Shown here: positions 42,316 through 52,616 of the stretch, piece by piece | Layout of the letters: each line of letters begins with the position of its first letter | Numbering within the stretch: position 1 is the stretch's first letter | Assembly: GCA_006226495.1 (NCBI GenBank) | Contig: SBGU01000040.1 | Location: 1 to 64,000, forward strand | Direction of reading: 5' to 3' | From: Alphaproteobacteria bacterium | Lineage (GTDB): Bacteria > Pseudomonadota > Alphaproteobacteria > Sphingomonadales > Kordiimonadaceae | Length of the DNA: 64,000 nt | Position numbers and translations under genes: made by a program | The notes under the pieces: generated by a model | What the model saw: only the letters and a program-made list of their open reading frames with translations | Database searches by the model: none | What the model was told of the DNA's origin: nothing

Positions 42316-43095
42316 TCAGGTCAGCGATTCATCGGCTTCCATGCGTTTGTGGCCGTCCGGCGAAACCCTGAGCACCATGCGGTCCGGCAGGCGCATGTCG
42401 ATGACCATGACCTCCCGTTCCAGAAGTCGGTGCTTGTTTTCATACTCGACAAACCGGCTCCAGGCGGCCTGGGCGCCATAAGGCACCTGGTCGTCCTCCG
42501 GCAGCTTGACCCGGATGCCATTGTCGAAAATCAGGTCCCAGCGGCGTTCACCCACGCGCACGGCGGTGCGCACCTTGGCGGCCAGCTCGGGCGTTTCGTC
42601 CAGCATGGTCTGCAGCGCATGCACACGGCCCTGGGCACCGTCGCCCACCACCAGCATCAAGTGCGCAAATTCCTTGACCCCGCGCGTGGTGATCACCGTG
42701 CCATCGGCATCAATCACATAAACCCGGCCCTTGTCCTGCCACAGTGCATAGGCATGGCGTTCGGTAAGGCGGATATGCAGTTCACCCGGCAGCACGCGGG
42801 TCACTTCCGCGCGCTTGACCCACGGCAGGGCCTCGAGCTGCTTCTGCATCTGGCCCAGATCAATGGCCAGAAGCGGCATGCCGTCGTCGACATCCAGCGC
42901 GGCCAGCACTTCAGACCGGCGGCTGCGTTCCATGCCTTCGATGCTGAGGGACGACAGCACAAAACCCGCGTCCCGCGTGCGTTCAACGAACCAGCCCTCG
43001 ATCACCGGCGCCTGCCATGCGGCATAGCCCGCCGCCGGCACACACAGCATCAGCGGAACAAGCTTCAACCAGCGATGACGAAACGTCAGTGCCAT
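42316..43095 (-). CDS. ftsQ: Cell division protein FtsQ
   Basis: The 259-residue protein is a bitopic divisome component: one N-terminal membrane helix (residues about 10-28), a POTRA domain (SLSIEGMERSRRSEVLAALD onward) and a FtsQ-type C-terminal domain (LPWVKRAEVTRVLPGELHI, then YVIDADGTVI). It is somewhat short for alphaproteobacterial FtsQ. It starts only 3 bases after murB; ddl, often found between them, is absent. Confidence 0.93.
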   Translation of the reverse strand: MALTFRHRWLKLVPLMLCVPAAGYAAWQAPVIEGWFVERTRDAGFVLSSLSIEGMERSRRSEVLAALDVDDGMPLLAIDLGQMQKQLEALPWVKRAEVTRVLPGELHIRLTERHAYALWQDKGRVYVIDADGTVITTRGVKEFAHLMLVVGDGAQGRVHALQTMLDETPELAAKVRTAVRVGERRWDLIFDNGIRVKLPEDDQVPYGAQAAWSRFVEYENKHRLLEREVMVIDMRLPDRMVLRVSPDGHKRMEADESLT

Positions 43096-43098
43096 GCC

Positions 43099-44025
43099 TT
43101 ATGCCCCCTTGGCCGGATTGCCGATGATCCTGATTTCCCATTCGAGATCGACACCCGACGTTTCCTTGACCCGCTTGCGCACGGTTTCACCCAGTTCTTC
43201 AATCTGGGCCGCCGTGGCTTCGCCATGGTTCAGGAGGAAATTGCAGTGTTTTTCCGACACCTGGGCATCGCCGATGCGCATGCCCCGGCAACCGGCCTTG
43301 TCGACCAGTTCCCAGGCTTTCATGCCTTCGGGGTTCTTGAAGGTGCTGCCGCCGGTGCGCGTACCCAGCGGCTGACTTTCCTGCCGGTCGGCACTGATCT
43401 TGGCCATGGCGGCATTGATGGTTTCCACATCGCCGGTCTGGCACTGGAACGAACCACCCAAGAGGATCATGCCCTCGCCGATCCGGCTCGAACGGTAGGC
43501 ATAGCCAAAATCCTCAGCCCTGAGCTCGTGCACATGGCCGTACCGGTCCACCGCATGGGCATGCAACAGCACATCCTTGATTTCCCGACCATAGGCGCCG
43601 GCGTTCATGCGCAGGGCGCCGCCCACGGTGCCGGGCACACCAACCATGAATTCAAGGCCGGACAGGCCAACCTTGGCGGCAGCTTTGGCGACATGCACAT
43701 CCATGGCCGCAGCCCCAGCCTTCACCACATCACCCCGGATGACGATATTGGCGAACGCGCGGCCCAGCCGGATCACCACACCGTCCACACCGCCATCGCG
43801 CACCAGAAGGTTCGAACCGACGCCGATCACGGTCATCGGCACGTCACCCGGCATGTGGCGCAGAAAGGCGATCAGGTCGGCTTCGTCGGCGGGCTCGAAC
43901 AGCACATCGGCCGTCCCGCCGGTGCGGAACCAGCTAAGCCGGGCGAGCGGCGCCTGTTCTACAAGCCGGCCACGCACATGCGGCAGGTTGTCGAGAAAAG
44001 GCAGGTGTTTCGCTTGAGCCATCAT
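43099..44025 (-). CDS. murB: UDP-N-acetylenolpyruvoylglucosamine reductase
   Basis: The 308-residue FAD enzyme reduces the enolpyruvyl group to form UDP-MurNAc using NADPH. Motifs: [23 protein letters not shown] (FAD site), [25 protein letters not shown] with the catalytic Arg, GGSTFKNP with the catalytic Ser, and a C-terminal Glu in LEWEIRIIG. It overlaps murC by 4 bases. Confidence 0.97.
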
Positions 44026-49073: not shown

Positions 49074-50150
49074 TTACCTCAGCTTCAGGGTGGCAAGGCC
49101 GATAAGGGCCAGGATGACGGAAATGATCCAGAAGCGGATCACGATCGTGGGTTCGGCCCAGCCCTTCTGTTCATAATGGTGATGCAGGGGCGCCATCCTG
49201 AACACGCGCTTGCCGGTCAGTTTGAAGGACGCCACCTGCACGATGACCGAAATGGTCTCCAGCCAGAACAGGCCGCCGATGATGCCCAGCACGATTTCAT
49301 GTTTGGTGACCACGGCCATGGACGCCAGCGCGCCGCCCAGGGCCAGGGAACCCGTGTCGCCCATGAACACCATCGCAGGTGGTGCATTGAACCACAGGAA
49401 ACCGAGCCCGGCACCGATGATGGCGCCCGCCAGCACCGCCAGTTCACCCGAACCGGCGACATAAGTGACGCCAAGGTATGATGCATAGACCGTGCTGCCG
49501 ACCATATAGGCGATGAAGCCGAACGCGGCAGCGGCGATGATTACCGGCACGATGGCAAGGCCGTCCAGCCCGTCGGTCAGGTTCACGGCGTTACCGCCCC
49601 AGACCATGACCAGCATGGCAAAGGGCACATACCAGAACCCCATATCGAGGACAAAATTCTTCACGAACGGCAGCGCCAGGGTGGGTCCGTTCAGGGACGC
49701 CATCCACCAGGCGACAGCGCCGGTGATGCCAAATTCCAGCAGCAGACGCACCTTGCCGGACACACCCGCAGAGGTGCGTTTGGTGACCTTCAGATAGTCG
49801 TCGACAAAACCGATGGCGCCAAACGACAGGGTGACGATCAGCACCGCCCACACGTAAGGGTTCGAAAGGTCCGCCCACAGGAAGGTGGAAACCCCCATGG
49901 CCAGGAGGATCATGAAGCCGCCCATCGTGGGGGTGCCGGCCTTGGTGATGATATGGCTTTGCGGGCCATCCTCGCGGATCGGTTGGCCTTTTTTCTGCTT
50001 GGCTTTCAGCCAGCGGATGATCATGGGACCGAAGATGAAGCAGATGATCAGCGCCGTCAGCACCGCGCCGCCGGTGCGGAACGTCAGGTAACGGAACAGG
50101 TTGAACATGCCACCATGTCCGGCATATTGGCTGAGCAGATTATACAGCAT
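49074..50150 (-). CDS. mraY: Phospho-N-acetylmuramoyl-pentapeptide transferase
   Basis: The 358-residue membrane enzyme loads the muramoyl pentapeptide on undecaprenyl phosphate to make lipid I. It has ten helices and the conserved loops [36 protein letters not shown] (the DD pair), [13 protein letters not shown] and [12 protein letters not shown] (His cluster). It needs the pentapeptide precursor that a MurF enzyme normally makes. Confidence 0.98.
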
Positions 50151-50165
50151 GTCCGTTACTCCCTA

Positions 50166-51164
50166 CTATTCCGCAAGCATGAGCGCGCGTGTGGGCGCCC
50201 TGCCCGTCTGTTGTTCGTCCCGCATTGCGGCCCCGATTGCCGGCCGCACGGTATCGTCCATATCCCTGCCCGCACCCAGACCCGCCAGCGCCATGGCCGC
50301 CCGGCCCAGATCGCCGCCGGCTGCCTTGACGGCCGCCATCAACATCAGGCTTTTAAGCGCAAGATACCGGCCCGGCAGGCCGACCTTGTAGGTCACCGGC
50401 ACACCGTCGATATCAGCGCTCAGGCAGGTGCATTGGGCATGTTCGGTCAGCTTCAGGACCCTTACGTCGCTGCGGCTTCCGAGGGAGACGGTCATGACCG
50501 CCACACCCCGCCGGCGCGCCCGACGCACGAGGGATGAAGCATCCGCCCTATCCCTGTCAATAACCAGCATTGAACCTTCTGCAAGGCCTTCAAATGCCTC
50601 GCCAATTTCGGTGCCTTCGGCGCAGCCGACCATCATCACATGGGGCTTCACCAGTGCAACATCGGCGACTGCGTCGCCGTAAGCCAGGTCGAACACGCCA
50701 AAACGCGCACTGCGCGGCAGGCGCGCAAGGGTCAGCGGCACGGTATGTTCACCCGCCGTCATGTCGCGGCGTTCGCGCGACAGCACATCCAGCATGCGGC
50801 GCAGAAGGTTCGCGTCCGCGCCGCCCGTCAGCACGATACGGCTGGCCGGCGCGCGGTCGCGTGCGTGGGCCGCCATCAGGCGCAGGGTGGCGCCGGTGTC
50901 GGCCACATGCACAAGGCGCTGGTTGTCGTCGCGGGTGTCGCCCACATCACCATGCACCAGCGCCGCGATGGCACCGCGCGCAATGGCATCGGCCGCCGCG
51001 TCATGGCCGCCGCCCGGCACACCGTCCAGCGCGATGAACAGGTCGCCCGGCAACAGGCCGCGGCTGGTGACCCGAAGGCCGTCCGCATACCAAGGGCGCG
51101 CCATCAGCGCGCCACACGTGGCCCCCAGTTCGACCGAAGTCCAGATGGGTTCGTCAATCTGCAC
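50166..51164 (-). CDS. Degenerate MurF-like protein lacking ATP loop and ligase C-terminal domain
   Basis: This 332-residue protein occupies the murF slot. Its N-terminal part fits MurF (TSRGLLPGDLFIALDGV, GHDAAADAIARGAIAALV, then VADTGATLRLMAAHAR). Where MurF has the ATP loop G-x2-GKT it reads VLTGGADANLLRRML, with no Lys-Thr. The central domain is shortened, losing the metal-binding segment, and the protein ends after a PGRYLALKSLMLMAAV helix with no C-terminal Rossmann ligase domain (MurF is normally about 450-480 residues). The frame is unbroken from GTG 51164, 3 bases after murE, with the same base composition as its neighbours, so it is not a recent frameshift. A catalytic role is very unlikely; a structural or regulatory one is inferred. 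Confidence 0.8.
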   Translation of the reverse strand: MQIDEPIWTSVELGATCGALMARPWYADGLRVTSRGLLPGDLFIALDGVPGGGHDAAADAIARGAIAALVHGDVGDTRDDNQRLVHVADTGATLRLMAAHARDRAPASRIVLTGGADANLLRRMLDVLSRERRDMTAGEHTVPLTLARLPRSARFGVFDLAYGDAVADVALVKPHVMMVGCAEGTEIGEAFEGLAEGSMLVIDRDRADASSLVRRARRRGVAVMTVSLGSRSDVRVLKLTEHAQCTCLSADIDGVPVTYKVGLPGRYLALKSLMLMAAVKAAGGDLGRAAMALAGLGAGRDMDDTVRPAIGAAMRDEQQTGRAPTRALMLAE

Positions 51165-51167
51165 GCC

Positions 51168-52616
51168 CTAGCCCTCGCTCCCCAGGATGCTGCGCACCGT
51201 TTCAATATCCGAAAAAGGCAGTATGTCGGCCCCGACGATCTGTCCTTCTTCATGTCCCTTGCCGGCAACGATCAGCATGTCCCCGTGCTGCATGGTTGCC
51301 ATGGCGGTTTCGATGGCCCGCGCGCGGTCGCCCACTTCGATGGCGTCCGGGCACGCGGCCAGAATGGCTTCGCGGATTGCGCCGGCGTTTTCGCTGCGCG
51401 GGTTGTCGTCGGTTACAAACACGGTGTCCGCCAGTTCAGCGGCGATGGCGCCCATCTGCGGGCGTTTGCCGGTGTCGCGGTCGCCACCACAGCCGAACAC
51501 CACCAGCAGCCGGTTCGGTTTGTGGGCGCGCGCGGCTTCGAGCACGGTTTTCAGGCCGTCCGGCGTGTGGGCATAATCCACAAACACGGCGCCGCCGGCC
51601 CCTGTGGTGCCGATCAGTTCCATGCGGCCCGGCACACCTTTGAGGGATGCAAGGGCCGCGAACGCCGCCCCCGCGTCCATGCCGGTCGCAATGGCAAGGC
51701 CTGCGGCCACCAGCGCATTCTTGGCCTGGAAATAGCCAACCAGCGGCAGATCGATATCATAGGACTGCCCACCATAGGACACGCTGATATGCTGGCCCGT
51801 GGGCGCCACTTCCTGCGACAGCAGGCGAATGACCGCCGCCTCGCGCGTACCGACGCTCAAACAGGTCAGCCCGCGCGCCCAGCAGATATCCTCCAGCACC
51901 CGGCCCCAGGGGTCGTCGGTGTTGATAACCGCGGTCTGGCCCGGCGCCAGAAGGTCGCCAAACAGACGGGCTTTCGCAAAAAAATAGCCCTGCTCGGTCT
52001 TGTGATAGTCCAGATGGTCGCGCGTCAGGTTGGTGAAGGCGGCAGCCTTCAGATGCACGCCGTCCAGCCGGTACTGGTCCAGCCCGTGGCTTGATGCTTC
52101 AATGGCGGCATGGCTGACACCGGCTTCCTTCAGGTCACGCAGCATGCCATGCAGCGCCATCGGGTCCGGCGTAGTCAGGCCACCCGGCAAGGTGATGACA
52201 TCCGACCGCACACCGAGCGTGCCGATGCTGGCGGCATTCAGGCCGCCCGCGCGCCAGATCTGGCGGGTGAAATCGGCGACCGAGGTTTTGCCGTTGGTGC
52301 CGGTGACAGCAACCATATAATCGGGCTGCTGTTCAAAATAGCGGGACGCGAGATCGGCATAGCGCCGGCGCGGATTCTGGTCCTCGACCACCGGCACGCC
52401 GATATCGACGGGTGCGCCGCCCGGCGTGGTCAGGATCGCGCTGGCACCAGCTTCGACCGCCGCCTTGATGAAGGCGCGGCCGTCGGTTTTGGTGCCGGGC
52501 AAGGCCACGAACAGGTCACCCGGGCGCACGCGGCGGCTGTCGACAGTCATGCCCGAAATCCGGACATCGCCCGCCGCTTTTTTACCGCCCAACAATTCCG
52601 CCAGGGTGAGTGTCAT
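51168..52616 (-). CDS. murE: UDP-MurNAc-tripeptide synthetase (meso-DAP type)
   Basis: The 482-residue ligase adds meso-diaminopimelate. Motifs: VDSRRVRPGDLFVALPG, ATP loop VTGTNGKTS at about 104-112, THEAS-type AIEASSHGLDQ, and TDDNPRSE, in which DNPR marks meso-DAP specificity. All domains are complete, unlike the next gene. It lies 22 bases after ftsI. Confidence 0.97.
   Translation of the reverse strand: MTLTLAELLGGKKAAGDVRISGMTVDSRRVRPGDLFVALPGTKTDGRAFIKAAVEAGASAILTTPGGAPVDIGVPVVEDQNPRRRYADLASRYFEQQPDYMVAVTGTNGKTSVADFTRQIWRAGGLNAASIGTLGVRSDVITLPGGLTTPDPMALHGMLRDLKEAGVSHAAIEASSHGLDQYRLDGVHLKAAAFTNLTRDHLDYHKTEQGYFFAKARLFGDLLAPGQTAVINTDDPWGRVLEDICWARGLTCLSVGTREAAVIRLLSQEVAPTGQHISVSYGGQSYDIDLPLVGYFQAKNALVAAGLAIATGMDAGAAFAALASLKGVPGRMELIGTTGAGGAVFVDYAHTPDGLKTVLEAARAHKPNRLLVVFGCGGDRDTGKRPQMGAIAAELADTVFVTDDNPRSENAGAIREAILAACPDAIEVGDRARAIETAMATMQHGDMLIVAGKGHEEGQIVGADILPFSDIETVRSILGSEG

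Follow-up and report, generated by a model that had tools for sequence, protein, structure and literature searches.

MurF is the UDP-MurNAc-tripeptide--D-Ala-D-Ala ligase and is generally treated as indispensable to bacteria that make peptidoglycan. MurT, of the GatD/MurT pair, is a Mur ligase homologue that has no UDP-binding N domain; it acts on lipid II, for which, its authors argue, the N domain is unnecessary and likely to clash with the membrane (PMC6113224). The MurE-like PAP11 of the plastid RNA polymerase is a Mur ligase homologue in another complex, and PAP11/AtMurE is listed among the Mur ligase family proteins whose activity is not known (PMC4080259). In Bordetella pertussis MurE and MurF are fused, which places MurF next to MurE in what has been proposed to be a multi-protein Mur assembly that includes MurG. 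The gene reported here differs from the latter two systems in that PAP11 is a plant MurE homologue whereas ours is a MurF in the dcw cluster, and in that its product is in all probability dead while the B. pertussis fusion is described as bifunctional (PMC6420597).

We analysed a 64,000-nucleotide stretch of DNA (the window) from a bacterium that its relatives place in the Kordiimonadaceae (genome G000, assembled in 60 contigs and 96.8% complete), where the dcw cluster around murF is otherwise ordinary. An open reading frame (ORF) of 332 aa with a GTG start and no internal stop (50166..51164; minus strand, as for all window features below) lies in frame between its upstream neighbour murE, 3 bases away (51168..52616), and its downstream neighbour mraY, 15 bases away (49074..50150; named by position and by homologues 74-91% identical in the mapped loci). 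MurF (TIGR01143, NF010693; PDB 4cvk, 1gg4) is the ancestor, with which the ORF shares its place in the dcw cluster and the fold of the N domain and central domain. Residues 5-306 matched positions 4-332 of the 479 in the MurF model NF010693 with 137.8 bits, against a cut-off of 544. Searches with Pfam detected the N domain (PF01225, E 1.7e-5) and gave no match to Mur_ligase_C; of the 200 positions of the middle domain only the rear ones, 110-196, were matched, and this below cut-off. An AlphaFold2 model of the truncated protein was a confident MurF-like fold (pLDDT 81.5, pTM 0.80), and its best PDB fold matches were MurFs (4cvk, TMq 0.72, 27% identity). The tenth-best match, behind nine MurF chains, was the plastid RNA polymerase chain 8r6s_Q, which we take to be PAP11.

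To score what has been lost we took as reference 29 MurFs of the same order but outside the family (25 of them belong to a single family, f8), after dropping one contig-cut locus (L026) from 30; these share 108 strictly conserved columns. The ORF retains 41 of them, whereas the 14 motif-complete members of the family retain 81-93. Retention was 14/20 in the N-terminal domain (about residues 1-105, 50850..51164), 23/61 in the middle domain and 4/27 in the C domain, where only a short tail stands in place of the missing ligase domain (residues 298-332, 50169..50273). What remains of the P-loop (residues 113-120, 50805..50828) reads TGGADANL where TGSxGKTS is expected, so that G-K-T has become D-A-N (GGADAN against the required G-x-x-G-K-T/S). 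Among the columns to which we assign catalytic roles in the MurF active site, the Asn pair is lost, Glu is replaced by Asp and His by Glu, and the Lys column was removed by an internal deletion, approximately located near residues 188-189 (50598..50603). Unlike MurF, the ORF thus lacks the P-loop and the C domain and keeps none of the catalytic motifs intact, and given these absences it cannot be an ATP-dependent ligase of the MurF type; we regard its product as almost certainly catalytically dead. The sequence-only reading had described a protein that keeps the N-terminal MurF domain and lacks the ATP-loop Lys-Thr, part of the central domain and all of the C-terminal domain, and this description was confirmed.

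The best-kept parts of the truncated protein are the N domain and the rear of the central domain. The latter (residues 241-290, CTCLSADIDGVPVTYKVG..., 50295..50444) is the best-kept stretch, and across its residues 241-280 the protein is identical at 28/40 positions to that of the sister genome G064 (100% complete). The CTC...TYKV segment encoded here has outlived the catalytic motifs in G000, G064, G043 and G067, and contains one Cys and one Lys that are strictly conserved across the 29 outside MurFs. Both sisters also carry the internal deletion and lack the C domain, their last codons agree, and the 3' end up to mraY is nearly identical in the two. The sequences show that the ORF descends from the dcw MurF and lost the C-terminal domain before the split from the G064 lineage.

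Across 29 genomes of the family the dcw murF was motif-complete in 14, full-length and degenerate in five, truncated in two (G000 and G064) and absent in eight, where the murE and mraY matches lie 31-52 bases apart. Two of the degenerate copies (G043, G067) have lost the P-loop Lys-Thr and the DDSYNANP motif together with the Asn pair, His and Lys. The other three retain the P-loop and have lost the Asn pair; in addition G104 and G038 have Lys in place of Glu, and G087 has Arg in place of His. Their degeneracy is less certain than that of G000, G064, G043 and G067. The MurFs of G262 and G216, two genomes that do not carry the replacement candidate described below, also depart from several motifs, and motif departures alone therefore do not prove death. 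On a species tree of ten dcw proteins, rooted on G034 and with several weak deep nodes (37-68), the eight absences formed one clade (UFB 100), G000 and G064 were sisters (no support value is given for their node), and so were G043 and G067 (UFB 100). Degenerate G104 paired with intact G076 (91) and degenerate G087 with intact G099 (100), and G038 stood alone. Read on this tree, the canonical dcw MurF was inactivated or lost at least six independent times in the family. Relatives with a full-length MurF at this locus had been named as a counter-argument; some do have one, but the sister shares the truncation and the clade of eight has lost the gene.

A profile search of G000 revealed no other canonical MurF; it gave six TIGR01143 matches at E<=0.001, none over the cut-off. 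The best of these was a 578-aa protein on contig 19 (G000:C19:109917-111650), hereafter TM-MurF, whose first 222 residues are mostly membrane-type helices and whose remainder is a Mur middle and C-terminal domain. No PF01225 was detected in TM-MurF, where the helices take the place of the UDP-binding N domain, and the membrane domain had no Pfam match. With 219 bits the protein falls under the TIGR01143 cut-off of 288.6, and this is still its best match among the NCBIfam models. The catalytic residues of its middle and C domains could be aligned to E. coli MurF, and Gly-Lys-Thr of the P-loop, N260, E283, H313, K327, R441, D456 and N461 were invariant in 44 sequences. The predicted helices are separated by conserved stretches (QQEEYD...RF..W and KKxLVxTxR..RI) that could, as a conjecture, meet a lipid pyrophosphate. 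TM-MurF is present in all 29 family genomes, and records whose titles name at least six phyla, with many metagenome bins among them, contain it too. In a tree of the ligases all TM-MurFs fell together (UFB 99) and joined canonical MurF (UFB 99) to the exclusion of MurC, MurD and MurE, and as the canonical MurF clade itself had a support of only 54, TM-MurF could branch inside MurF; the MurF of Yoonia, which failed the P-loop pattern, and nine near-duplicate TM-MurF rows were omitted from this tree. TM-MurF resembles MurT, likewise a homologue of the Mur ligases, in lacking the UDP-binding N domain, and it differs from MurT in having MurF as best match, membrane helices of its own and a Ddl neighbour. 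MurT was not its best match in any of these comparisons: Pfam reported only generic Mur domains, the best NCBIfam match was MurF and the MurT chain 6gs2_B came last of 24 PDB matches.

The TM-MurF gene adjoins genes for a D-Ala-D-Ala ligase and an alpha/beta hydrolase in an operon other than dcw, as seen in locus L007. The top match to the Ddl model adjoins TM-MurF in 28 of the 29 family genomes (in G096 that match is split over two contigs), although none of the 29 exceeds the Ddl cut-off; in G000 it is the only strong one, with 177 bits against 53 for the next listed. Usually ddl sits between murB and ftsQ. In the window these two genes are adjacent and their junction (43095..43099) has no room for ddl, and the murB and ftsQ matches lie no more than 362 bases apart in all of the mapped loci that show both, 18 of 21 (the mapped dcw loci include L098-L117), so the dcw ddl is missing. 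Of 80 fetched TM-MurF loci (L127-L206), 76 contain a hydrolase homologue and 68 a homologue of Ddl; short contigs make up part of the remainder. The alpha/beta hydrolase (L007:6152-6931) accompanies TM-MurF across distant groups.

We then compared TM-MurF with canonical MurF in 340 Alphaproteobacteria of at least 95% completeness, 14 with and 326 without TM-MurF. A full-length canonical-type MurF was present in 3/14 genomes with TM-MurF (G281, G479 and G360, the last with a protein below the family cut-off) as compared to 318/326 without, canonical-type among the 326 meaning a TIGR01143 match at E<=1e-40 (Fisher p 1.7e-13, with no correction for relatedness). By the family cut-off alone the figures were 2/14 and 311/326. 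Six low scorers without TM-MurF are canonical-type, some as fragments (G216, G250, G262, G343, G365, G415), and one or two more were counted as such unexamined. Eight of the 326, all without TM-MurF, had no TIGR01143 match at E 1e-40 either, and four of these eight belong to one genus (G245, G334, G460, G512; 0.9 Mb each). In the order-wide samples six genomes, all less than 90% complete, were without a strong match to either (G036, G098, G103, G108, G112, G114). Of the 11 genomes that have TM-MurF only, the ten other than G000 were searched; no canonical match exceeded the cut-off and the TM type was the best match in all ten. In one TM-MurF genome a partial MurF-like match with an internal stop adjoins a MurE-like match (G230:C246:16153-18486) and is perhaps another murF remnant. 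In some Alphaproteobacteria (G247, G260, G521 and others) MurF matches fall in open frames of about 940-990 aa, perhaps MurE-MurF fusions.

The exclusion is incomplete. Among 50 further TM-MurF genomes, whose completeness is not given, at least seven had a canonical MurF over the cut-off among the matches listed, and a canonical type below it is probable in at least two more, G170 and Alistipes G196 (the latter with an N-terminal match inside a frame of 802 aa). Where both types co-occur outside the family, the canonical copy is full-length and visibly degenerate in G360 (L224) and in Yoonia maritima (GKAS, VNQWD, IKIGAR; L213, L220), whose Glu-to-Lys change is also that of G038 and G104 in the Kordiimonadaceae; it is intact by motif in G281 and G154, and G479 is in between. 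Since neither type shows motif damage in 14 family genomes or in G281 and G154, a further duty of TM-MurF is conceivable. It had been proposed that either a second MurF exists elsewhere or the step is done differently; a second canonical copy was not found, and in its stead a membrane-anchored homologue likely substitutes. From the phyletic pattern and the Ddl neighbour, TM-MurF very probably performs the MurF step. TM-MurF would then join D-Ala-D-Ala to the muramyl tripeptide, and by covering this reaction would leave the canonical MurF free to die in the family.

With the reaction covered elsewhere, the dead copies can be kept for another task or be on their way out. The latter possibility, that murF decays after the takeover by TM-MurF and that its frame is kept mainly as its translation feeds mraY through translational coupling, is to us plausible at rather less than even chance, and in the G000 lineage it is a serious rival to a protein-contact role. 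Between G000 and G064 the truncated MurF gave dN 0.488, dS 1.415 (close to saturation) and dN/dS 0.345 (bootstrap 0.23-0.47), above all 12 dcw neighbours (0.079-0.245) and so the highest of the 13 genes; its identity between the two genomes is 48%, as compared to 68-91% for the neighbours. As both genomes carry the deletion and the same last codons and lack the C domain, this ratio reflects evolution after truncation. The gene was cleanly lost in the clade of eight, and the part kept base for base is the 3' end that adjoins mraY, all of which a decaying gene can account for. However, a dN/dS well below 1 is not given by coupling alone, and in neutral simulations of one lineage at 0.7 substitutions per site the frame acquired a mean of 5.9 stops and stayed stop-free in only 1/300 runs. 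Moreover, the fully dead full-length copy of G043/G067 (dN 0.031, dS 0.613, dN/dS 0.051, bootstrap 0.032-0.074) is as constrained as its 12 dcw neighbours (0.014-0.095). For comparison, pairs of motif-complete MurFs gave 0.08-0.16 in four cases and 0.03 in one, where dS is saturated. Judged by these rates the dead MurF copies are not neutral and the ORF is evidently still selected to stay open, as had been suspected from its uninterrupted frame. Neutral decay in close relatives had been named as a counter-argument; decay is indeed present, and its neutrality was not borne out. With its open frame, the signs of purifying selection and no catalytic motif, the ORF is a predicted MurF pseudoenzyme.

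Taken together, the account we favour, and consider probable, is that of a MurF pseudoenzyme and a TM-MurF replacement, with some dead copies kept for a non-catalytic job. We hold some selected role of the dead MurF to be highly likely in the G043/G067 lineage and somewhat likely in the G000 lineage. The likeliest job, as a guess, would be contact with MurE, MraY, MurG or TM-MurF in a precursor-making assembly, carried by the N domain and the rear of the central domain. Any such role must be dispensable, as eight close relatives are without a dcw murF.

A more far-reaching version is tentative and in our opinion unlikely: the D-Ala-D-Ala step may have moved to the membrane, where MraY would transfer the tripeptide and TM-MurF would extend the lipid-linked muropeptide with D-Ala-D-Ala from the neighbouring Ddl, the old MurF repeatedly becoming a pseudoenzyme with a structural or regulatory part to play in the new assembly. 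It was also suggested that the dead protein still binds UDP-MurNAc-tripeptide and presents it to MurE and MraY. This we find quite improbable. The N-domain signature DSR...DGH, which presumably contacts UDP, is nearly invariant in the 29 outside MurFs and is partly retained in the ORF (TSR...GGH), where SR and GH persist, and a MurF fused to MurE is reported to bind MurG in another bacterium (PMC6420597). Against this, the signature is lost in three other dead copies, namely the sister G064 (AGQ...DDV) and the full-length copies of G043 and G067 (SAS or EAS...DDE). The UDP-precursor site of the dead MurF thus looks eroded, and the erosion in these copies favours protein contact over substrate holding, counting against the suggestion. 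Even less probable is a split enzyme, in which the dead MurF would supply its UDP-MurNAc-binding N domain in trans to TM-MurF; the domain retained in the ORF, with 14/20 columns kept, is the very one absent from TM-MurF, but eight family genomes have TM-MurF alone and the signature loss in G064, G043 and G067 also speaks against it, and we largely rejected this alternative. An assembly or sequencing artefact, conceivable in a draft of 60 contigs at 96.8% completeness, has next to no probability, since these deletions and this 3' end recur in the complete sister genome, so the truncation is genuine.

In the openly accessible literature that was searched we found no membrane-anchored MurF and no MurF loss in Kordiimonadaceae; in databases TM-MurF may be filed as a MurF or as a Mur ligase. 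Our finding points to a membrane-anchored class of MurF that is used by other bacteria too, often without an ordinary MurF. Should the substrate of TM-MurF prove to be lipid-linked, the pathway would not everywhere follow its textbook order. Dead MurFs that selection retains also open the question of a Mur-enzyme scaffold to testing, because in them nature has already removed catalysis. Finally, as the Kordiimonadaceae show intact, dead and deleted murF on a single tree, the replacement of an essential enzyme can be traced step by step in this family.
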